NCBI GenBank assembly: GCA_024278175.1
Contig: JAJRTS010000071.1
Location: forward strand, 62,001 to 126,000
From: Gemmatimonadales bacterium
Lineage (GTDB): Bacteria; Gemmatimonadota; Glassbacteria; GWA2-58-10
Length of the DNA: 64,000 nt
Reading direction: 5' to 3'
Each line of letters begins with the position of its first letter. Position 1 is the stretch's first letter. The position numbers and the translations under genes are program-made. A model generated the notes under the pieces. The model ran no database searches. It was not told where the DNA came from and was given only the letters and a program-made list of their open reading frames with translations. This document shows positions 2,124-12,659 of this stretch, in pieces.

Positions 2124-3626
2124 TCAAGCGCCGTCAGGATCGCACTCTGGCGGGAGTTTCCGCATCGATGAGAAAGCGCTTGCGGCCAGCAGCCAGATCA
2201 GTGGCTCGATCTCATAGCGGATCCTGGCGTTTTCTCCTATTTCCAGCAGGTTTACCACGCCGCTGACATAAGCCACGGTAAAGAGCATGAACAGCGCGGC
2301 TATCCCCCTTGGTCCCCTCAAGCCCTCAAGCCCTCCGCGAGCCAACGCCGCGGGCCAGTAGAGCGCAATCGCCAGCAGGGCCGCCAGTACGAACAGGCCG
2401 ATATCCGGCAGAGACTCCGACAGCTTGATCCTGCTCTTGAACTCGGTATGGTAGTTATCTCGCCAGAGTGAGCTGAGTTGCCCGTAGAGAATGACATCGG
2501 ATACCCGGACCCAGGGCCCTATTTTTTTTACATTCTCCGGATTGAAAATCTGGTCGTGGGGCGGCTGAACGTACAAACTAAGCGCTCCGAACACACCTCC
2601 GGCGTAGGCTGCGGGGCGATAACGGACCACGCTGAGGTCATCGTGAAGGAAACGGCGGGAAATATCGACATAGGCCGGGTGGTTGAAATTGGGCGCTCCG
2701 CTGGCGGTTCTCTCGTTATCCAGGATCGGGATGCCGCTGGGAAGGAACGAACCGACTTCACCCGTTTTCTCACGATAATAGTCGAGGCTCTCGAAATTGG
2801 CATACAGGCCGAATTTCGAGAGTCGGCCATTGGCGAACATCTTCACCCGCTGGAAATCAGAGATCTGCATGATCGTGATCTTGTAGAAATTCATCCCCAG
2901 CAGCGTGCTGGTGGTAAAGCCTCCCACGGTGTAATAGTTCTTCGCCATCCACAATCCCACAACCAGCAGAGGGATCAACGCGGCGGTTACAATCTGCCTG
3001 CGGCACTCTGGCAGCAGCAGCCACAGCGCGCCCGGCACCAGCAGCAGCCACAGCGGATGAAACATACTGCGGGTCAGCACAACCATCGCCAGCAGCAGGA
3101 ACAGGCAAAACAACCAGGCAAGTTTCCTGGTTTCGGCAAAGACATTAAGCGCCAGCGCGGCCAGCACCAGCATCAGCGCAACCGGGTAACTGTAAAACGC
3201 CCAGTTCTCCAGCAGGATCGTCGCCGGAGTGACGGTAAACACTCCGCTAAGCGCAAATGCCCATTTGCGGCCAAGCCCCAGGCGGAGGCCAAGCAGAAAG
3301 ACAGCAATACAGAGGCACAGCCCCATCACCAGGTAGATCAGCTGCAACACCTGAATAAAATTACCCGGAAATATTTTGCAGACCAAACCGATGAACAAAT
3401 TAAACAGGGGCGGTTGGTAGTGGAGCAGCAGAACAGTGCGGAACAGGTCTTCCTTGAGCAGCAGCGGATCGGCGATCTGGATCAGGTTATCGAGATCGGC
3501 CACAAACCTGACGCCGATCGCGTAACAGGCCAGGCGCGAGAGCGCGAAAAGACCGGCGAGATAGCAGCACAACCTTGTGGTGCCTGAGGGGAACAACTTG
3601 CTTTCGCCGCTCATTTTACCGCTCAT
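2124..3626 (-). CDS. multi-pass membrane glycosyltransferase-like protein (GT39/ArnT-like)
   Basis: About 500 residues with some ten hydrophobic segments. After the first membrane segment comes a soluble loop (ADLDNLIQIADPLLLKED then HYQPPLFNLFIGL). That pattern of an acidic first loop followed by a Pro-rich re-entry is seen in polyprenyl-phosphate-sugar-dependent integral membrane glycosyltransferases (GT-C fold, GT39/ArnT/PMT-like). A long extracytoplasmic stretch (roughly residues 230-370) precedes the last membrane segments. I infer transfer of a lipid-linked sugar at the outer face of the inner membrane; the acceptor is unknown. The ATG at 3624-3626 is chosen because upstream in-frame codons run into the 3705-3910 repeat. 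A second ATG four codons on is equally possible. No operon partner is evident. Confidence 0.6.
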   Translation of the reverse strand: MSGKMSGESKLFPSGTTRLCCYLAGLFALSRLACYAIGVRFVADLDNLIQIADPLLLKEDLFRTVLLLHYQPPLFNLFIGLVCKIFPGNFIQVLQLIYLVMGLCLCIAVFLLGLRLGLGRKWAFALSGVFTVTPATILLENWAFYSYPVALMLVLAALALNVFAETRKLAWLFCLFLLLAMVVLTRSMFHPLWLLLVPGALWLLLPECRRQIVTAALIPLLVVGLWMAKNYYTVGGFTTSTLLGMNFYKITIMQISDFQRVKMFANGRLSKFGLYANFESLDYYREKTGEVGSFLPSGIPILDNERTASGAPNFNHPAYVDISRRFLHDDLSVVRYRPAAYAGGVFGALSLYVQPPHDQIFNPENVKKIGPWVRVSDVILYGQLSSLWRDNYHTEFKSRIKLSESLPDIGLFVLAALLAIALYWPAALARGGLEGLRGPRGIAALFMLFTVAYVSGVVNLLEIGENARIRYEIEPLIWLLAASAFSSMRKLPPECDPDGA

Positions 3627-3704
3627 GCCTGCCCCGCTGGAATAATTAAGCAGCCGTTTTATCCGCCGGCAACGCTGAATCGTAAAACAAGGGAGTCCGC
3701 TAGA

Positions 3705-3910
3705 GGGGCGTTGAAATAATACGCTCAACGCCTTGGAGTGAAAAGTTTTGCCCCGTTGCTTGTCAAGGGCAAGGCAAGCCGTTTCTTTTGTCAATTTTGC
3801 TACTTGTACTAGACCAAGCAGTTGCATCGTACGGATCGTTTTGGGCTTGAATAGCGGGAAACGGCCCTTGACAACCGGATGCCCATACTTACGTTATTTT
3901 TCAACACGCT
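3705..3910 (+). repeat. dispersed palindromic intergenic repeat, copy A
   Basis: 206 bp, one of three well-preserved copies. Order of parts: a small hairpin (GGCGTTGA...TCAACGCC, 3706-3732), a spacer, the left arm TTGTCAAGGGC (3760-3770) with AAGGCAAGCCGTTTC, about 70 bp of variable sequence, the right arm GAAACGGCCCTTGACAA (3858-3874), and the end box TTTTTCAACACGCT (to 3910). The left and right arms are complementary, so the element can fold into one long stem. It sits between the aroF1 terminator and the glycosyltransferase gene. Confidence 0.85.
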
Positions 3911-3992: not shown

Positions 3993-5012
3993 TCATAGCC
4001 TTTTACCTTCAGCCCTGAGAATTGGCTTCAGGCCCTTGACCAGCTCTGCGAACTGCTCGGGGTTCAGCGACTGCTCCCCGTCGGAAAGGGCATTCTCCGG
4101 ATCGATATGGACCTCGATTATCGCCCCGTCAGCGCCACAGGCTGCCGATGCCTTGGTCATCGCCCCCACCAACGCCGACACCCCGGTGCCGTGGCTGGGG
4201 TCTACAATTATGGGCAGATGGCTCATCCGCTTGACCAACGGTACGGCCGAAAGATCGAGCGTGTTGCGCGTGGCGGTCTCAAACGTGCGGATGCCGCGCT
4301 CGCAGAGGATCACGTTGGGGTTTCCCTGGCTGACCACGTACTCGGCCGACATCAGGAACTCGTCGATAGTCGCCGAGAGCCCGCGCTTGAGCAGGACCGG
4401 TTTATCGAGCAGGCCCACCTGCTTGAGCAGGGCGTAATTCTGCATGTTACGCGCACCGATCTGAAGAATGTCGGTGTAACGCGCCACCAGCGGAATGTCC
4501 TGCGGAGTGATAATCTCGGTAACTATCGGCAGGCCCGTTTTTTCCCGCGCCTCGGCAAGCAGTTCCAGACCCTCTTCTTCCAGGCCCTGGAAGCTGTACG
4601 GGCTGGTGCGCGGTTTGAACGCACCGCCGCGAAGTACGGTTGCGCCGGCCTTTTTCACCTGCTCGGCCGTGGCGATAATCTGCTCGCGGCTTTCCACGCT
4701 GCAGGGTCCGGCGATGATTACGAACCGGTCGCTGCCGAACGCCACGTTCTCCCCCACCCGGACAATAGTCTTGTCCTTTTTCAGCTCACTGCCGACCAGC
4801 TTGTAAGGCTTGAGGATCGGAATCACTGATTCCACGCCGGGCACGGACTCCAGGCCCTTGAGGCGGAACTTGCCGCGCTCGTCGCCGATAGCCCCGATCA
4901 CGGTCCGCTGCTCGCCGTAAATCGGGTGAGTCTTGTAGCCGAGTTCACGCACTTTATCGAACACATGGTCGATCTGGGCGCGGGAGGCGTCCTCTCTCAT
5001 GACGATAATCAT
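3993..5012 (-). CDS. aroF: 3-deoxy-7-phosphoheptulonate (DAHP) synthase, paralogue 1
   Basis: Condenses phosphoenolpyruvate with erythrose 4-phosphate, the first step of aromatic amino-acid synthesis. It is a type I-beta DAHP synthase. Residues 1-80 form the ferredoxin/ACT-like regulatory domain ([10 protein letters not shown]..., VIGAIGD), and a TIM barrel follows with [47 protein letters not shown] and DPSHGTG. The start ATG at 5012 is preceded by GCAGGAG. It is the last gene of the leuACDB run and has its own terminator. A second, closely similar paralogue lies at 10447-11469. This copy lacks the Phe/Tyr attenuator that precedes the other, so the two are probably controlled differently. 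Confidence 0.95.
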
Positions 5013-5070: not shown

Positions 5071-6138
5071 TTACCTGGAGGCTTGCTCGGCGATCAGGTC
5101 GCCGACCTCGCGGGTTCCGTAACCCATCTTACCGGCGCCCAGGTTCTTGATCTTGTTGGCGCAGGCCCACTTGACAGCGTCTTCGATGTCTGTGGCCATG
5201 GCGGTTTCGCCCAGGTCCTCGAGCATCATCGCGGCGCTGCAGATCGAGGCCAGCGGGTTGATCACGTTCAGGCCGGTGTACTTGGGCGCGCTGCCGCCGA
5301 TAGGCTCGTACATCGAAACGCCCTCGGGGTTGATGTTGCCGCCGGCGGCGATACCCATCCCGCCCTGGACCATCGCGCCCAGGTCGGTGATAATGTCACC
5401 GAACATGTTCTCGACCACCAGCACGTCGAACCACTCGGGATTCTTGACCATCCACATGCAGGTAGCGTCCACGTGAGCGTAATCACGCTTGATGTCGGGG
5501 TAATCAGCCTTGCCGACCTCGTGAAACACACGCTCCCAGAGGTCGCTGGCGTAAGTGAGTACGTTGGTCTTAGCCACCAGCGTGAGTGTCTTATTCTTGT
5601 CGCGCTTGCGGCAGTACTCGAAAGCGTAGCGTATGCAACGCTCCACGCCCTTGCGGGTGTTGATCGAGGTCTGGATCGCCACCTCGTCGGCGGTACCCTT
5701 CTTAAGGTTGCCGCCCGAGCCGGCATAGAGGCCCTCGGTGTTCTCGCGCACGACCACGAAATCAATATCCTCGGGTCCCTTGTCCTTGATCGGGGTCGAT
5801 ACGCCGGGATAGAGTTTGACCGGACGAAGGTTGATATAATGGTCCAGGCCGAAACGAAGGGCCAGCAGCAGGCCTTTTTCCAGGATACCGGGCTTGACGT
5901 CCGGGTGGCCGATCGCGCCCAGCAGGATCGCATCGTATTTTTTCAGGGTCTCGATACCGTCCTCGGGAAGAACGACACCGGTGGCCTTGTAGTTCTCGCC
6001 GCCCCAGTTAAAATCGGTAAACTCAAAAGTTTTGCCATACTTACTCGCCACAGCCTTGAGTACTTTCAAAGCCTCGTCCACAACCTCCGGCCCCGTGCCG
6101 TCGCCGGGGAGAACCGCGATTTTATAACTCGACGCCAT
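5071..6138 (-). CDS. leuB: 3-isopropylmalate dehydrogenase
   Basis: Oxidative decarboxylation of 3-isopropylmalate to 2-ketoisocaproate with NAD+ in leucine synthesis. 355 residues. Family blocks: [11 protein letters not shown] (N-terminal nucleotide/substrate loop), LRPVKLYPG (substrate Arg residues), [38 protein letters not shown] (metal Asp residues) and [12 protein letters not shown] (NAD adenine loop). Isocitrate, homoisocitrate and tartrate dehydrogenases share these motifs. The neighbouring leuA, leuC and leuD make leuB the best call. The start ATG follows AGAAGGAGTGG. Confidence 0.93.
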
Positions 6139-6221: not shown

Positions 6222-6842
6222 TTATCCCGCCAGCAACCAGGGTTGAGCGCCGTGATGTTTTTCCTCAAACCAGGTAATCTCGCTCTCATGCTGTAGCGTC
6301 CAGCCGATATGGTCCAGCCCCTTGAGCAGGCAGTTGCGGGCAAAGGGCGGCACCGCGAAGCTGAAATTCAGTCCGCCGGGCGAGGTAAGCGTCTGCGTTT
6401 GCAGATCGACCGTAAGCTGCGTACCCTCGTTGGTTTCGATCTCCCGGAACAGGGCCTCCACCTCAGCGGCGGCCAGCGCAACAGGCACCATCCCGTTCTT
6501 GGTGCAGTTGTTGAAGAAAATGTCGGCGAAACCGGGCGCCACCACCGCACGAAAACCGTATTCCACCAACGCCCAGGGAGCATGTTCCCGGCTGGAGCCG
6601 CAACCGAAATTATCACGGGCAACCAGGATCCCGGCCCCCTGATAGCGGGGAGCGTTGAGGATAAAATCCGGATTGGGCTGCGTCTCCTGCTCGTCCAGAT
6701 AGCGCCAGTCGTGGAAGAGGTGCTTGCCGAACCCCGTGCGCTCTATTTTTTTGAGGAACTGCTTGGGGATTATCTGGTCCGTATCGACATTCTGACGGTC
6801 GAGAATGGCCGCCAGCGCCGTATAACTGGTAAAAGGTTCCAT
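6222..6842 (-). CDS. leuD: 3-isopropylmalate dehydratase small subunit
   Basis: Swivel-domain subunit of isopropylmalate isomerase, which works with LeuC to convert 2- to 3-isopropylmalate. 206 residues. Diagnostic blocks are [13 protein letters not shown] near the N-terminus, [18 protein letters not shown] (the conserved substrate loop) and [20 protein letters not shown]. The start is 37 bp after the leuC stop. The C-terminal [13 protein letters not shown] motif is typical of the full-length bacterial LeuD rather than the shorter archaeal form. Confidence 0.95.
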
Positions 6843-6879: not shown

Positions 6880-8277
6880 TCAGAGCAATTCGCGCGGGTC
6901 AGCGAAGCGCCCGCTGACCGCGGCGGCGGCGGCCAGCAGCGGGCTGACCAGATGCGTGCGTCCACCCTTGCCCTGACGGCCTTCAAAGTTGCGGTTGCTG
7001 GTGGAGGCGCAGCGCTCACCCGGCGCCAGGCGATCATCGTTCATCGCCAGACACATCGAACAGCCGGCGGTGCGCCACTCGAACCCGGCCCGCAGAAAAA
7101 CCTCGTCCAGGCCCTCCTGCTCGGCCTGCCGCTTGACCAGACCGCTGCCGGGCACGATAATCGCCCGCACCCCGTCGGCCACTTTGCGGCCGCGCACGAA
7201 CCCGGCCACCTCGCGAAGGTCCTCGATCCGGCCATTGGTGCAACTGCCGATAAACACGGTGTCGATCTCTATTTCTTTGATCGGCGTATTGGGCTTGAGA
7301 CCCATGTACTCCAGGGCCAGCTCGATATTGCGGCGCTCGCCCGGATCGTCGCAGGCGGCCGGGTCCGGCACCTTGCCGTCGATACCGGTTACCATCCCGG
7401 GGCTGGTGCCCCAGGTTACCCGTGGCCGCAGGGAGTCGATCCTCAACTCCAGCACTTCGTCGTACACGGCGTCCGGGTCGGAAGGGAGCTGTTTCCAAAG
7501 CTCGACCGCTTTGGCGAAGTCCTCGCCCTCCGGTGCGAACGGACGGCCCTGAAGGTAGTCGAAAGTCCGCTGGTCGGGGGCCACCATCCCGGCGCGCGCC
7601 CCGGCCTCGATACTCATGTTGCAGAGCGTCATCCGGCCTTCCATCGACATCCGGCGGATAACCTCGCCCGCGTATTCGATAACATAGCCCGTGCCGCCGG
7701 CCGTGCCGATCTGGCCGATAATCGCAAGGATTACGTCCTTGGGCCCGAAATGTTCGGGAGTCTGGCCCTCCACCCTGATCAGCATTGATTTGGGCTTGCG
7801 CTGCTGAAGGGTCTGGGAGGCGAGCACGTGCTCCACCTCACTGGTGCCGATCCCGAACGCCAGGGCCCCGAACGCGCCGTGGGTGGCGGTGTGGCTGTCG
7901 CCGCAGACGATAGTCATACCCGGCAGGGTCAGTCCCTGCTCGGGCGCCATGACGTGCACCACTCCCTGACGGACGTCGTCGAGGTCGAAAATCGTGATCC
8001 CGAAATTTTTACAATTCTCGCGCAGTGCTTCAACCTGCCTGGCGCTCAGGGGATCGGCTATCGGTTTGTCGCGATCAAGGGTCGGGACGTTATGGTCCGG
8101 TACGGCGAACGTGGCCCGCGGCTGGCGGACCTTGCGCCCGGCGAGCCTGAGCCCCTCGAACGCCTGGGGCGAGGTCACCTCGTGGACCAGGTGGCGGTCG
8201 ATATAGAGCAGCGTGATTCCCTCATGCTCTGCCACCACGTGCGCGTCCCAGATTTTCTGGAACATCGTTTTACCCAT
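6880..8277 (-). CDS. leuC: 3-isopropylmalate dehydratase large subunit
   Basis: Aconitase-family [4Fe-4S] subunit of isopropylmalate isomerase. 465 residues, normal for bacterial LeuC. Seen: [54 protein letters not shown], and the cluster cysteines in [13 protein letters not shown] and in [10 protein letters not shown]. The ATG at 8277 is chosen because AAGGAG lies 8 nt upstream. The in-frame extension upstream has no such signal. It follows leuA by 58 bp and precedes leuD by 37 bp in one operon. Confidence 0.96.
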
Positions 8278-8335
8278 CGTACTTCTCCTTGTAATCATCA
8301 CTTGTAGTCGTATGTTAGCGCATCAGTGAGCGTAA

Positions 8336-9883
8336 TCAGCCTTTTTCCGCGGCTTTCCCGCGCGCGAACAGGGCCTTGTTTACGGCGTTCAGGTAGGCCC
8401 GGGCCGTGGCGTCCATCACATCGGTGCTGGCAGCCTTGCCCATGTACTCCACATCATCGAACACAACGCGGATGAACACCTCGCCGATCGCCTCGCGGCC
8501 CTCGCTAATCGAGCGGATCTGGTAATCGGTCAGCGAACCGTCCAGACCCACAATCCTGTCGATAGTGTTGCACAGCGCGCTGACCGGACCCTCGCCGGTG
8601 GCGGCCTCCTCGATTTCCTCTTCGGTTTCCCTGTTCTTAAGCACCAGCGTGGCGCTGCTCACTATCTGGTTGCCGCCGACTGTCTGGATGTACTTCATGT
8701 GCCAGATTTCCGGGATATCCTGGATCCCGTCCTGCACTATCGCCAGCAGATCGTCGTCGGTAATCGTCTTCTTCTGGTCGGCCACCTTGGTGAACAGCTT
8801 GTAGGCCTTCTCAAGGTCCTCTTTGGCCAGGTCGAACCCGAGTTCCTTGAAGCGCACGGCCAGGGCGTGACGGCCCGAGTGCTTGCCGAGCACGATATTG
8901 CTCTTCAAAATGCCCACCGACTGCGGGGTCATGATCTCGTAGGTCAGCGAGTCCTTGAGCATCCCGTCCTGATGAATTCCGGCCTCGTGGGCGAACGCGT
9001 TCTTGCCCACTATCGCCTTGTTCTGCTGGACGAACACGCCGGTGATATTGCTGAGCAGGCGGCTGGTGGGATAGAGTTCCTCGGTGACTATCCCGGTTAT
9101 AAAATCGAGAAAATCCGCGCGCGTGCGGCAGCTCATCACAAATTCCTCCAGCGAGGCGTTGCCCGCCCGCTCGCCGATACCGTTGACCGTGCACTCCACC
9201 TGGCCGGCCCCGTTGCGGCAGGCGGCGATAGAGTTGGCCACACCCAGGCCGAGATCGTTGTGGCAGTGGGTGCTCAGCACCGCTCTAGTACCCAGATCGG
9301 GCACGGCGTCGCAGAGCCTTTTCATCCGGGCGCCCCACTCCTCGGGGATCGCGTAACCGACAGTGTCCGGGATGTTGATCGTGGTCGCTCCGGCATCGAT
9401 AGCGGCCTGCGTCACCTGGGCCAGGTAGCCGTCATCCGTGCGGCCGGCATCCTCGCAACTGAATTCGATATCGTCGAAATAGCCCTTTGCTTTCTCGACT
9501 GCCCTGACGGCCGATTCCAGAACCTGCTCACGGCTTTTTTTGAGCTTGTACTTGAGGTGGATGTCGCTGGTGGCGATAAATGTGTGAATACGCGGCTTCG
9601 CGGCCTTTTCCAGCGCCCGGGCCGCCCGCTCTATATCAATATCGACAGCACGGGCTAGGCCCGCGACCACCGGGCCACGGACCTCTTCGGCCACCTTGCG
9701 GACCGCCTCGAAATCACCCTCGCTGGCAATCGGGAACCCGGCCTCCATCACATCCACGCCGAGTATGGCGAGCTGATGGGCCATCCGCAGTTTTTCAGCG
9801 AGGTTCATGCTGCAACCAGGGCTCTGCTCACCGTCGCGAAGAGTCGTATCGAAAATGGTTACCTTGCGTTTAGCGTCGGACAT
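8336..9883 (-). CDS. leuA: 2-isopropylmalate synthase
   Basis: Condenses acetyl-CoA with 2-ketoisovalerate, the committed step of leucine synthesis. 515 residues, the length of full LeuA type 1. The catalytic TIM barrel carries [16 protein letters not shown], the metal motif [27 protein letters not shown] and [12 protein letters not shown]. The C-terminal third (from about residue 390) is the regulatory LeuA dimer domain that normally binds leucine ([29 protein letters not shown]). The start ATG at 9883 has GGGAGG 8 nt upstream. A longer reading would start inside the inverted-repeat element at 9905. First gene of leuA-C-D-B-aroF1. Confidence 0.95.
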
Positions 9884-9904: not shown

Positions 9905-10056
9905 ATGGCTTTGTAAGAAGTCCATCTACTTTGTTGCGCTGCATATCTCGTCACTGCGGAGTACCTTTAAGTACACCTCATTCCTCGATATTTGCGCGCC
10001 TCGTACCTGGAGCTTTTTACTTTGCCATCGGGAAATATGGCTTTCTACGAAACCAT
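9905..10056. repeat. MITE-like element bounded by imperfect inverted repeats
   Basis: About 150 bp with matching ends: ATGGCTTTGTAAGAAGTCCAT (9905-9925) and, inverted, the sequence at 10037-10056. Inside is a short palindromic patch around AGTACCTTTAAGTAC (9959-9973). There is no coding potential. It lies directly upstream of leuA. It resembles non-autonomous mobile or REP-type intergenic elements, but only one copy is in this window. Confidence 0.45.
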
Positions 10057-10119
10057 CATCTTTGATCGAGAATTGGTTTTCGAATGAACACTCAAGTTAC
10101 CGGCAGAGCTGCATTCAAG

Positions 10120-10153
10120 CAGTCCGCCGGGCGCTGAGGAGCGCCCGAACTGC
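10120..10153. other. strong nested hairpin upstream of leuA
   Basis: An inner perfect stem CGGGCGCT/AGCGCCCG with a GAGG loop (10128-10147) lies within an outer stem GCAGTCC/GAACTGC. There is no T-run on either strand, so it is not a standard terminator. It could be part of an untranslated leader of the leu operon or an aro-operon 3' end. Confidence 0.4.
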
Positions 10154-10228
10154 CCTCGCAGGCTGGGGGTGGAAAACCGTTTTCTCTCTATGGCGAAGTC
10201 ATACATTGCGAGCAAAATCCCTTCTAAA

Positions 10229-10434
10229 GGGGCGTTGAAACAAAGACATTCAACGCCCTATGGTGAAAAATTTCGTTTGTTCGGTTGTCAAGGGCAAGGC
10301 AAGCCGTTTCTTTTGCTGATCCTGTTACTTATGTTGTATCAAGCCGTTGCGTCGTTCGAGCTGTTTTGGACCGGCCTGGCTGGAAACGGCCCTTGACAAC
10401 CTTTATTCCCATTCTTCGTATATTTCAACACGCT
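10229..10434 (+). repeat. dispersed palindromic intergenic repeat, copy B
   Basis: 206 bp, the same length and order as copy A: small hairpin GGCGTTGAA...TTCAACGCC (10230-10257), left arm TTGTCAAGGGC (10285-10295) with AAGGCAAGCCGTTTCTTTT, variable middle, right arm GAAACGGCCCTTGACAA (10383-10399), end box TTTCAACACGCT (to 10434). It ends only 13 bp before the aroF2 stop codon. Together with the 9905 element and the 10120 hairpin it fills the gap between leuA and aroF2. Confidence 0.85.
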
Positions 10435-10446
10435 AAAATAATCCCG

Positions 10447-11469
10447 TTATTCGCCGAGCGTCCGTCCGATAGCCCGCGCGATAATTTCCAACTCTTTCAT
10501 CAACTTGCCGAACTGATCGGGATACAGGCTCTGCGCCCCGTCGCTGACAGCTTTATCCGGCTGGTGATGGACCTCGATTATCAGCCCGTCGGCCCCGGCG
10601 GCGGTGGCGGCGCGCGCCATCGGCAGCACCTTGTCGCGGATACCGGTGCCGTGGCTGGGGTCGGCCACCATCGGAAGGTGGCTCAGCTTCTGCACAACCG
10701 GGATAGCGCAAATGTCCATCGTGTTGCGCGTATAGGTTTCGAACGTGCGAATGCCCCGCTCGCAGAGGATCACGCTCTTGTTGCCGCCGCTTAGCAAATA
10801 CTCGGCGCTCATCAGCAGTTCCTCGATCGTGGCGGAAAGGCCGCGCTTGAGCAGCACCGGCTTATCCAGCACACCCAGAGCGCGCAGCAGGGTAAAATTC
10901 TGCATGTTGCGCGCGCCCACCTGAAGGATGTCCACATAGGGCAGCATCACCTCGATCTGGCTGGCGTCCATGATCTCACTGATAACAGCCAGACCGTGCT
11001 TGTCGGCGGCGGTGCGCATCAGTTGCAGGCCTTCCTCGCCCATGCCCTGGAAACTGTAGGGGCTTGTGCGCGGTTTGAAAGCGCCGCCGCGAAGAATTTT
11101 TGCTCCGCTGCCGGCCACCCGGGCGGCGATCTGCTCTATCTGGTCCTTGCCCTCCACCGCGCACGGCCCGGCCATCACCACCACTTGCCTGCCGCCGATC
11201 TCGATATCATTGCCGACCTTGATCACCGAATCGAACGGCTGGAACTGGCGGCTGGCCATCTTGTAGGGTGCGGAAATCCGCACAACCTCGCCAACGCCAT
11301 CGAGGATCTCGAAATCGCGCTGGTCGATAGCGGCGGTGTCGCCCACCGCACCGATAACCGTATAGTTCATCCCGGTGGAGCGATGAGAGTCCAGGTTGAG
11401 GCTTTGGATTTTTTCGATTACCGCCTGAATCTGTTCCTCGGTGGCATCGTGACGCATGCTGATGACCAT
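10447..11469 (-). CDS. aroF: 3-deoxy-7-phosphoheptulonate (DAHP) synthase, paralogue 2
   Basis: Second type I-beta DAHP synthase, 340 residues, same layout as the 3993-5012 gene: regulatory domain (MVISMRHDATEEQI, VIGAVGD) then barrel motifs [56 protein letters not shown]. The start ATG follows GAAGGA and is only 4 nt after the aroQ stop, so it is translationally coupled to chorismate mutase. Both lie downstream of an attenuator with a Phe/Tyr-rich leader peptide. This paralogue should therefore respond to Phe/Tyr charging at the transcriptional level. In related enzymes the N-terminal domain mediates allosteric inhibition; whether it does here is not visible. Confidence 0.94.
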   Translation of the reverse strand: MVISMRHDATEEQIQAVIEKIQSLNLDSHRSTGMNYTVIGAVGDTAAIDQRDFEILDGVGEVVRISAPYKMASRQFQPFDSVIKVGNDIEIGGRQVVVMAGPCAVEGKDQIEQIAARVAGSGAKILRGGAFKPRTSPYSFQGMGEEGLQLMRTAADKHGLAVISEIMDASQIEVMLPYVDILQVGARNMQNFTLLRALGVLDKPVLLKRGLSATIEELLMSAEYLLSGGNKSVILCERGIRTFETYTRNTMDICAIPVVQKLSHLPMVADPSHGTGIRDKVLPMARAATAAGADGLIIEVHHQPDKAVSDGAQSLYPDQFGKLMKELEIIARAIGRTLGE

Positions 11470-11473
11470 CGGC

Positions 11474-11749
11474 CTATCCTTCTTTCTCTGTCAATTCCCG
11501 CTCAAGACGGCGAGTTTCATCGATTATCCTCTCGAACAGGCGCTTGATCGCCTGGTCGGACAACGGGCCGGGATTGACCTGCTGCACATGTTCGTAAATC
11601 TGGTCCTCGCGGGCGGGATTATAAACCGGCTGATCGTGTTCCCGCTTGATCTTACCGATTTCCAGCGCATAACCCGCGCGCCGGTTAAACAACTCCAGCA
11701 GCTTATCGTCAACCGCATCAATCTTGATTCGCCAGTCGTTGATATCCAC
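11474..11749 (-). CDS. aroQ: chorismate mutase, AroQ class
   Basis: Rearranges chorismate to prephenate, the branch point to Phe and Tyr. A 91-residue all-helical AroQ domain: DWRIKIDAVDDKLLELFNRRAGYALEIGKIK (helix 1 with catalytic Arg and Lys), NPAREDQIYEHV, and a C-terminal helix FERIIDETRRLER. The GTG at 11749 is the best start although its ribosome site is weak. The frame stays open upstream into the attenuator terminator (to 11821), which cannot be coding. The stop is 4 nt before aroF2. A stand-alone AroQ coupled to a DAHP synthase suggests a complex or coordinated control at the entry and branch of the pathway. Confidence 0.88.
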   Translation of the reverse strand: MDINDWRIKIDAVDDKLLELFNRRAGYALEIGKIKREHDQPVYNPAREDQIYEHVQQVNPGPLSDQAIKRLFERIIDETRRLERELTEKEG

Positions 11750-11810
11750 CTTCGCTACTTTCGCTGAATTAAATTCCGCCCTGTTGCGGCGGGACAGACA
11801 CCCTGAATAC

Positions 11811-11837
11811 AAAAAAACCACTATCGGTTGATAGTGG
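11811..11837 (-). terminator. attenuator terminator upstream of aroQ
   Basis: On the minus strand, a perfect 8-bp stem CCACTATC/GATAGTGG with a 4-nt loop (11818-11837) is followed by seven T residues (11811-11817). It lies between the promoter and aroQ, inside the leader RNA, so its natural role is conditional termination. Its 5' arm is also complementary to 11885-11895, giving an alternative antiterminator fold. Confidence 0.9.
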
Positions 11838-11884
11838 AATTATGCGGACTTACGCGCTAAAGTCAGGAATTTTAGTTCCAATCC

Positions 11885-11895
11885 TCCACTATCAA
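11885..11895 (-). promoter_or_regulatory. antiterminator 5' arm of the aroQ-aroF2 attenuator
   Basis: The RNA segment UUGAUAGUGGA (11895 down to 11885) is perfectly complementary over 11 nt to UCCACUAUCAA (11838 down to 11828), the 5' side of the terminator. The two pairings exclude each other. The segment starts 6 nt after the leader-peptide stop codon, so a ribosome parked on that stop would cover it. Confidence 0.82.
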
Positions 11896-11901
11896 TCCGG
11901 G

Positions 11902-11940
11902 TCAACCGGGAATAAACAGATATAAGTAAAGGTAAAACAC
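11902..11940 (-). CDS. Phe/Tyr-rich attenuator leader peptide (12 residues)
   Basis: A 12-codon frame, GTG start (11938-11940) to TGA (11902-11904), reads MFYLYLYLFIPG: three Tyr and two Phe codons in positions 2-9. A full Shine-Dalgarno GGAGG sits 5 nt before the GTG. This is the classic form of an amino-acid biosynthetic leader peptide. Ribosomes stalled at Tyr/Phe codons would leave the antiterminator arm free (read-through into aroQ-aroF2). Ribosomes reaching the stop would mask it and let the terminator form. The peptide itself needs no function. Confidence 0.85.
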   Translation of the reverse strand: MFYLYLYLFIPG

Positions 11941-12012
11941 CTTTTCCTCCAAAAGCCATGCAGCGGGCTGGAAAACCTGATTTCATCAAATTTTCTACTA
12001 TAGATAACGTCT

Positions 12013-12041
12013 ATAGTAAGCAATCAGCGCCGCACAGTCAA
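12013..12041 (-). promoter_or_regulatory. promoter of the aroQ-aroF2 operon
   Basis: On the minus strand TTGACT (12036-12041) is separated by exactly 17 nt from TACTAT (12013-12018), a near-consensus sigma-70-type promoter. Transcription would begin near 12005, giving a leader of about 190 nt to the terminator. Confidence 0.75.
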
Positions 12042-12125
12042 GTTTTTTGCAATCTATCTCATCGATATTCTACAGGTTGTGGGCCCGAAGCGCGGCATCA
12101 CCTCCAGCGTTTTGTCCGATTTCAG

Positions 12126-12623
12126 TTAAAAACTGAACTTGCCAAAATCCTCGGGGTTCATCTTGCGCAGGGTTTCGCGCAACACTTCCGGATCGTATTC
12201 CTCGGCCTGCTGGGAGATCGTTTTAGGTACGATCTTGCTCGCGCTCTCCAATAGCTCATCGGTGGTGCGGATCGGCGCCTTCATCCTCAGGGCCAGCGCG
12301 ATAGAATCGCTGGGCCGGGCATCCAACTCAATTCTCTTGCCCTCCTGGCTCAGATACAGCCTGGCGTAATACGTATTGCCCTTGAGCGTGTGGATCACCA
12401 TGCTGTCCATCTGTACCCCCAGATCGACCAGCGCCTGCTTGAACAGATCGTGGGTCAGCGGGCGCTTGAACTTGACACCGCTGATTTCCATCGCGATCGC
12501 ACTGGCCTCGCTGGGACCGATCCAGATCGGCAGCACCCGTTCACCGTTCTGCTCCTTGAGCAGAACGACCGGCGAGTTATTGGCGCTGTCTACACCGAGT
12601 CCGGAAATAGTCAATTCAACCAT
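12126..12623 (-). CDS. bifunctional nuclease (BFN, DUF151) family protein
   Basis: 165 residues. The BFN domain covers the first 130 residues: VELTISGLGVD, PVVLLKEQNGERVLPIWIGPSEASAIAMEI, DLGVQMDSMVIHTLKGNTYYARLYL, DARPSDSIALALRMKAPI. The family is widespread in bacteria and plants. A plant member showed RNase/DNase activity, but the bacterial role is poorly defined. A short charged tail follows. The ATG at 12623 has GAGAG upstream; a GTG five codons earlier is an alternative. It sits between the aroQ promoter and ahcY with no clear operon link. Confidence 0.85.
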   Translation of the reverse strand: MVELTISGLGVDSANNSPVVLLKEQNGERVLPIWIGPSEASAIAMEISGVKFKRPLTHDLFKQALVDLGVQMDSMVIHTLKGNTYYARLYLSQEGKRIELDARPSDSIALALRMKAPIRTTDELLESASKIVPKTISQQAEEYDPEVLRETLRKMNPEDFGKFSF

Positions 12624-12659
12624 GACTGGCTCTCTCACTGGGTGAAGAATAAAATGACT

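Follow-up and report, generated by a model that had tools for sequence, protein, structure and literature searches.

A short intergenic region precedes aroQ and aroF2 on the minus strand of the stretch of DNA analysed here, which is 64 kb long, comes from a bacterium that has apparently not been cultured, and is called the window below. An earlier note on this DNA had read the region as a Phe/Tyr attenuator. This reading raises three questions: whether ribosome-mediated attenuation operates at this locus, which amino acids are sensed, and which genes are controlled. The leader is best read as a classical ribosome-mediated transcription attenuator, a reading to which a probability of roughly 0.9 is given on sequence evidence, and it probably senses Tyr, Leu, and Phe together.

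Architecture of the Leader

The leader lies between a gene for a protein with a bifunctional-nuclease domain and aroQ (Table 1). Downstream of the putative promoter, a Shine-Dalgarno motif introduces an open reading frame (ORF) of twelve codons (GTG TTT TAC CTT TAC TTA TAT CTG TTT ATT CCC GGT, then TGA). The predicted peptide, V(M)FYLYLYLFIPG, contains the codon block F-Y-L-Y-L-Y-L-F. Arm A begins 6 nt 3' of the leader stop and is 100% complementary to arm B over 11 nt. Arm B also forms the 5' side of the terminator, a hairpin with an 8-bp stem that is followed by seven T residues. A promoter with a leader ORF, codons that match the products, a terminator, a competing antiterminator, and a fitting placement of codons and arm, features by which an attenuator is recognized, are present. 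The earlier note had described a complete attenuator upstream of aroQ-aroF2 with an 11-nt antiterminator pairing, and it was right in the parts, their positions, and the pairing. The same region carries a perfect 9-nt inverted repeat that overlaps the -10 box.

Table 1. Positions of the leader elements, the downstream genes, and neighbouring features in the 64-kb window.
Feature	Positions	Strand	Remarks
Bifunctional-nuclease-domain gene	12126-12638		
Putative promoter	12013-12041	minus	TTGACT (12041-12036), N17, TACTAT (12018-12013)
Inverted repeat	11996-12018		TACTATAGA/TCTATAGTA
Shine-Dalgarno motif	11946-11950	minus	GGAGG, 5 nt 5' of GTG
Leader ORF	11902-11940	minus	GTG 11940-11938 to TGA 11904-11902
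Arm A	11885-11895	minus	antiterminator 5' arm, TTGATAGTGGA
Arm B	11828-11838	minus	TCCACTATCAA, partner of A or C
Terminator hairpin	11837-11818		CCACTATC-AACC-GATAGTGG
Arm C	11818-11825	minus	terminator 3' arm, GATAGTGG
Terminator T tract	11811-11817	minus	T7
aroQ	11474-11749	minus	chorismate mutase (CM_2, CM_P2); start by conservation
aroF2	10447-11469	minus	DAHP synthase, Bsub/PRK08673 type, N-terminal FXD domain
Dispersed repeat	about 10225-10434		MITE-like, ~210 nt
Small ORF between aroF2 and leuA	10045-10206	minus	degenerate here (RFSTPSL)
leuA	8336-9883	minus	2-isopropylmalate synthase
leuC	6880-8301	minus	
leuD	6222-6842	minus	approximate start
leuB	5071-6138	minus	
aroF1	3993-5012	minus	second DAHP synthase of the predicted operon; approximate start
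567-aa ORF	2127-3827	minus	between aroF1 and proS

A scan for short Phe/Tyr-rich ORFs that are preceded by a Shine-Dalgarno motif and followed by a terminator and a competing arm found this combination at exactly one place on the two strands of the window. No matching structure appeared in 12 dinucleotide shuffles of the whole window or in 2000 local shuffles of the intergenic region, and a chance origin of the leader is rejected on the strength of the scan and the shuffles. Rfam returned nothing at gathering score for the whole window except two tRNAs, and the leader itself (11740-12060) matched no covariance model up to E=5, which rejects a T-box or another leader described in Rfam. Leaders of this size are too short for gene callers.

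Conservation Across the Class

Searches at the level of family, order, and class led to the same small set of six genomes from five genera of one family, namely the genome of the window (the focal genome) and five relatives (G001-G005). In all six, a Tyr-rich short ORF and the three arms stand 5' of aroQ-aroF. The promoter form TTGAC-N-N17-TANNNT, with its 17-nt spacer, is likewise kept throughout. A G-rich Shine-Dalgarno motif 5 nt from the GTG is found in four genomes; the leader start and this motif are not clear in G003 and G004. The conserved arm sequences are GATAGTG/CCACTATC/GATAGTGG, and each genome has 8 bp between C and B, at least 8 contiguous bp between A and B, a gap of 43-48 nt between A and B, and an 8-bp terminator stem with a T tract directly after the hairpin or one base later. 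The strict scan described above passes two of the six (focal genome and G005), and the other four miss single thresholds. Pairing was read by script in a register set by hand because, in a MAFFT alignment of the six leaders, the G004 arms and the G002 ORF were misplaced.

The arms stand out from their surroundings. Mean pairwise identity is 0.83 for arm A, 1.00 for arm B, and 0.96 for arm C, against 0.28-0.36 for the spacers and 0.31 for the DNA 3' of the terminator. In the codon block the amino acids are kept, with a nucleotide identity of 0.37 (columns were left unshifted for slightly differing block positions). Among the changes that preserve pairing, G-U pairs occur in G004 (arm A) and in G003 (arm C); beside the core, G004 has A-U for U-A and G-C for A-U. 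Compensatory changes are few because arm B, whose core is identical in all six genomes, has two partners, A and C, and is therefore invariant. Support thus comes from arms that are conserved amid unconserved surroundings rather than from rich covariation. The earlier note had expected relatives to keep the leader, the pairing, and the Tyr/Phe codons while the remainder drifts, as is seen in all six genomes. It had also looked for compensatory changes in the arms, which are few.

These data also bear on an account in which the GATAGTGG repeats serve as operators in the DNA, or belong to an RNA bound by a protein or a tRNA (T-box, TRAP-like), with a short ORF that is there by coincidence. The arms are indeed inverted repeats, and the focal genome has the additional palindrome over its -10 box. 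That palindrome, however, is not visible in the relatives and was rejected as an operator. The absence of an Rfam match also argues against such an element, as do the codon block and its spacing from arm A, kept in six of six genomes, and the T tract that closes every hairpin at once or after one base. Operators or a binding RNA are thus very improbable, and attenuation by a translating ribosome is the reading followed below.

Elsewhere in the phylum, AroF matches are found in 333 of 395 genomes. None of the 24 AroF loci examined from outside the class has a Phe/Tyr leader with a terminator; the AroF proteins of these loci are 70-94% identical to the best named Gemmatimonadetes locus (L076 or L084), and on this similarity the phylum is taken to be Gemmatimonadota. 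Within the phylum, the aroF attenuator looks specific to the class, to judge from these 24 outside loci, which are few. A little-sampled class, probably of Gemmatimonadota, thereby gains a clean and conserved candidate for a classical attenuation switch.

Spacing and Folding

The proposed mechanism follows from the order of the elements. RNA polymerase would start at the promoter, and a ribosome would enter the 12-codon leader. With ample charged tRNA for F-Y-L-Y-L-Y-L-F, the ribosome would reach the stop and cover arm A, B would pair with C, and transcription would end at the T tract. A ribosome stalled in the block would keep its front edge short of arm A, so that A:B could form before C is made. 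The polymerase would then read into aroQ-aroF2 and probably into leuACDB-aroF1. Stalling of this kind had been proposed in the earlier note and is well supported by the same leader, arms, and Tyr/Phe codons in the six genomes.

The spacing of the elements can be compared with this scheme. Counted from where the last Phe codon begins, the arm A core GATAGTG is 23, 24, 22, 22, 23, and 23 nt away in the six genomes. The end of the leader stop, in contrast, precedes the core by 8, 9, 10, and 10 nt in four genomes, and in the other two the stop is found past the core. Leader length is 10-12 codons in four genomes and greater in two, and both termini of the peptide differ widely. A fixed distance between block and arm together with a moving stop indicates that selection keeps the spacing of the codon block to the arm and leaves the end of the ORF free, which is what ribosome-mediated transcription attenuation predicts. 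The six leaders thereby offer a natural experiment on spacing under selection.

Arrest by the nascent peptide, in which the amino acid sequence of the leader rather than slow codons halts the ribosome, would account for a YLYL motif that is conserved at the amino acid level. However, the wide variation in leader length and at both termini, set against the fixed distance from block to arm, speaks against such a peptide, and the composition of the leader fits the products of the operon. Nascent-peptide arrest is accordingly given very little credence, and stalling at slow codons is retained.

The front edge of a stalled ribosome was placed 13 nt beyond the first base of the A site. With this value, a ribosome on the codon block leaves arm A free, and one that has arrived at the stop touches the edge of arm A in four genomes and has already moved across the arm in two. 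For the focal genome, the computed ensemble gives A:B a probability of 0.97 with the ribosome on the last Phe codon and B:C one of 0.99 with the ribosome at the stop; without a ribosome, the predicted split is 0.40 for A:B and 0.60 for B:C. A 1:2 pause hairpin is a feature of the E. coli trp attenuator.

The relatives agree less well with equilibrium folding, and this mismatch is where the computed case is weakest. With the ribosome on the last Phe codon, A:B is favoured in three of the six genomes (focal genome, G003, and G004), whereas in G001, G002, and G005 the terminator wins at equilibrium once C has been transcribed. In these three genomes, A:B would therefore need to be trapped kinetically before C is made. 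A stall at codon 3 in G004 is predicted to give the terminator too. Without a ribosome, read-through is predicted for the G003 leader, and in G002 and G005 A:B is predicted to be able to form before transcription reaches C, even with the ribosome at the stop.

Candidate Control Codons and Probable Amino Acid Specificity

The codon blocks of the six genomes, right-justified on the conserved Phe and with borders chosen by the analyst, read FYLYLYLF, CYLYWYLF, LYLYLLF, YYLYLYLLF, YRYLYLYF, and ELYLYLLF. Together they hold 48 codons, 19 for Leu, 18 for Tyr, 7 for Phe, and 4 for other amino acids, and a single Phe codon is conserved across the six leaders. Tyr would be the surest signal of this attenuator, and Phe is probably sensed through the last codon of the block.

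The background frequency of Leu is 8.4%, compared with 19 of 48 in the block, where the sequences are related and not independent. Genes in the class genomes use chiefly CTG or CTC for Leu, yet these account for 3 of the 19 leader Leu codons against 15.7 expected; the other 16 are TTG, CTT, and TTA. Tyr is encoded by TAC in 11 of 18 cases (12.1 expected), and Phe by TTT in 7 of 7. Since Tyr usage is not shifted, the Leu codons point to a bias toward minor codons more than to plain AT-richness. The shared ancestry of the six genomes means that naive probabilities overstate the codon case.

The attenuator might instead sense Tyr (and Phe) only, with the Leu codons as neutral filler of a hydrophobic, T-rich peptide and with the leu genes controlled separately. 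The leader Leu codons are mixed (TTG, CTT, CTG, CTC, and TTA), which would dilute sensitivity to any one isoacceptor, and G001 has Trp in place of one Leu. Simple T-richness may explain TTT at all seven Phe codons, and a conserved small ORF just 5' of leuA (discussed below) could serve the leu genes alone. Neutral filler, however, fits poorly with the excess of Leu in these related blocks, and with the scarcity of CTG and CTC, whereas TAC occurs as often as expected. Eight Phe/Tyr leaders at other aroF loci hold only 1 Leu in 88 residues, and the leu genes appear to be part of the aroQ-aroF2 unit. Sensing of Tyr and Phe alone is a serious but doubtful account.

Sensing of Leu as well is slightly favoured by codon content and usage. 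The earlier note had called the leader a two-amino-acid Phe/Tyr sensor. The Tyr and Phe codons on which that label rested are kept, but Leu is equally frequent, conserved, biased toward minor codons, and interleaved with Tyr, so the label is probably too narrow.

The Predicted Downstream Operon

The true start of aroQ is probably the GTG at 11749, which is kept in the relatives, rather than that of a longer ORF. The order aroQ-aroF2-leuA-leuC-leuD-leuB-aroF1 is found on all four contigs that are long enough (focal genome, G001, G002, and G004). The contigs of G005 and G003 end sooner, and the order is kept there as far as leuB and the start of leuA, respectively. No hairpin with a T tract was seen in the gap between aroF2 and leuA in any of the six class genomes. 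The controlled unit is most likely the whole of this seven-gene series, with cotranscription of the leu genes inferred from gene order. The two genes that the earlier note had named as the unit, aroQ and aroF2, do lie directly downstream, but the unit likely runs on through leuACDB-aroF1.

The gap between aroF2 and leuA has features of its own. A small ORF 5' of leuA, in which codons change synonymously, has the consensus M-F-x-F-A-I-x-I-x-W-[FY]-S-T-T-S-L in the gaps after aroF2 in L003 and L010-L013. A nucleotide pattern for W[FY]STTSL has hits in four of the six class genomes, always 5' of leuA, and in 2 of the 389 remaining genomes of the phylum. The ORF has no NCBIfam or Pfam match. Since it has neither a T-tract terminator nor a family match, no attenuator is claimed at leuA; it is possibly a leuA leader or an arrest peptide. 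In the focal genome, a MITE-like dispersed repeat of about 210 nt is inserted in the same gap. At least 40 scored copies, with 78-100% identity, are present among 168 first-look candidates in this genome. The corresponding gap of G001 is 213 nt long and lacks the repeat. The repeat may influence read-through into the leu genes.

Two further observations concern neighbouring proteins. The 567-aa ORF between aroF1 and proS has no NCBIfam or Pfam match; a 63% relative is present in G001, and none was detected in the G002 stretch. AroF2 is up to 68% identical to some acidobacterial AroF proteins, compared with at most 58% to the listed AroF proteins of other genomes of the phylum, a pattern that suggests transfer or an old paralogue.

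A fuller model holds that the interleaved Tyr-Leu block senses tRNA charging with three amino acids, Tyr, Phe, and Leu, and thereby governs a merged aromatic-leucine operon, that minor Leu and ordinary Tyr codons set two sensitivities, and that the W[FY]STTSL ORF tunes the leu part. The odds for this model as a whole are judged to be even. The locus would be a natural case of two unrelated pathways joined through one codon block, in which the weighing of mixed control codons becomes approachable.

Leaders at Other Loci

Outside the class, a short Phe/Tyr-rich ORF followed by a terminator precedes aroF at 8 of 104 loci: L034 (Thermoanaerobaculia), L057 (Anaerolineales), L063, L083, L096, L100, L105, and L106. 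These are Acidobacteriota, Chloroflexi, and Clostridia-type loci. They resemble the class leaders in their short Phe/Tyr ORF and terminator but differ in having practically no Leu, the count of 1 in 88 residues being that of their best 11-residue windows, and no leuA in the flank. Indeed, leuA is absent from the available flank of all 104 loci (up to 3 kb for the named loci, 1.5 kb for the others, and less at contig ends). In the strict scan, L106 is the only one of the eight with a competing arm. Attenuators of aroF may be widespread.

Within the class, Trp codons cluster in a short ORF upstream of trpE in all three genomes in which this region can be inspected: HWAWHW in the focal genome, WPHHWIW in G001, and AWVW in G002. 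In G004 the contig ends too near trpE, and G003 and G005 have no trpE above the family cut-off. The three leaders (L142, L143, and L144) lie at about -310 to -150 of trpE and have a CCGCGG terminator, with 9 bp and a T tract, about 25 nt after the ORF stop. A CGCCCGC stretch can pair with the 5' arm of the terminator, a pairing read by eye. Simple scans, which are weak negatives, found no leaders or terminators at pheA or ilvB in six genomes each, apart from a single weak hairpin at the G004 pheA. Although these scans were negative, the Trp leaders of trpE suggest that attenuation is in wider use within the class.

Relation to Known Attenuators

There is precedent for a Phe/Tyr leader that attenuates a DAHP synthase gene. 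By analogy, the closest known system is the aroR-aroF attenuator of Corynebacterium glutamicum, reportedly the work of Neshat et al. in 2014. According to the available text of the sources, an aroR leader with Phe-Tyr-Phe controls aroF there, and stalling raises transcription (PMC11802643; PMC4046766); the response is to limitation of Phe and not of Tyr (PMC11802643). Both systems place a leader peptide with aromatic codons before a DAHP synthase gene. The present locus differs in its phylum and in having aroQ and leu genes in the predicted unit, and the available portions of the papers mention no interleaving with Leu (PMC11802643; PMC4046766). Unlike the Phe-Tyr-Phe of the aroR type, the block here is (Y-L)n-F with one conserved Phe, so the likeness is one of working and not of demonstrated homology.

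The thr and ilv leaders of enterobacteria mix amino acids. The pheA, trp, leu, thr, and ilv attenuators of this group, as far as the sources at hand describe them, combine control codons in a leader ORF with a mutually exclusive terminator and antiterminator (PMC1183508; PMC11802643), and the leu leader is the model case of control by rare Leu codons (PMC1183508). The present leader shares the control codons, the exclusive structures, and, with the leu leader, the use of rare Leu codons. It differs in the genes controlled, no sequence relation is shown, and the mix of Tyr, Leu, and Phe is absent from the enterobacterial systems as these texts present them.

More distant parallels come from surveys, in the passages available. 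The uORFC-13-1 motif 5' of aroF in Acholeplasma is a predicted Phe-codon upstream ORF with a terminator (PMC8632094); unlike the present leader, it is defined by at least one Phe codon only, belongs to another lineage, and is a prediction only. A 2005 survey of Actinobacteria records no conserved element before Phe/Tyr operons in the text at hand, and describes arms with several pairing partners that are conserved over long distances (PMC1262725). Arm B shows the same kind of conservation. The literature searched, with most subscription papers outside it, reports no Tyr-plus-Leu leader and no attenuation in Gemmatimonadetes. Compared with these systems, what appears new is the lineage, the predicted merged aromatic-leucine operon, and the interleaved Tyr-Leu block.
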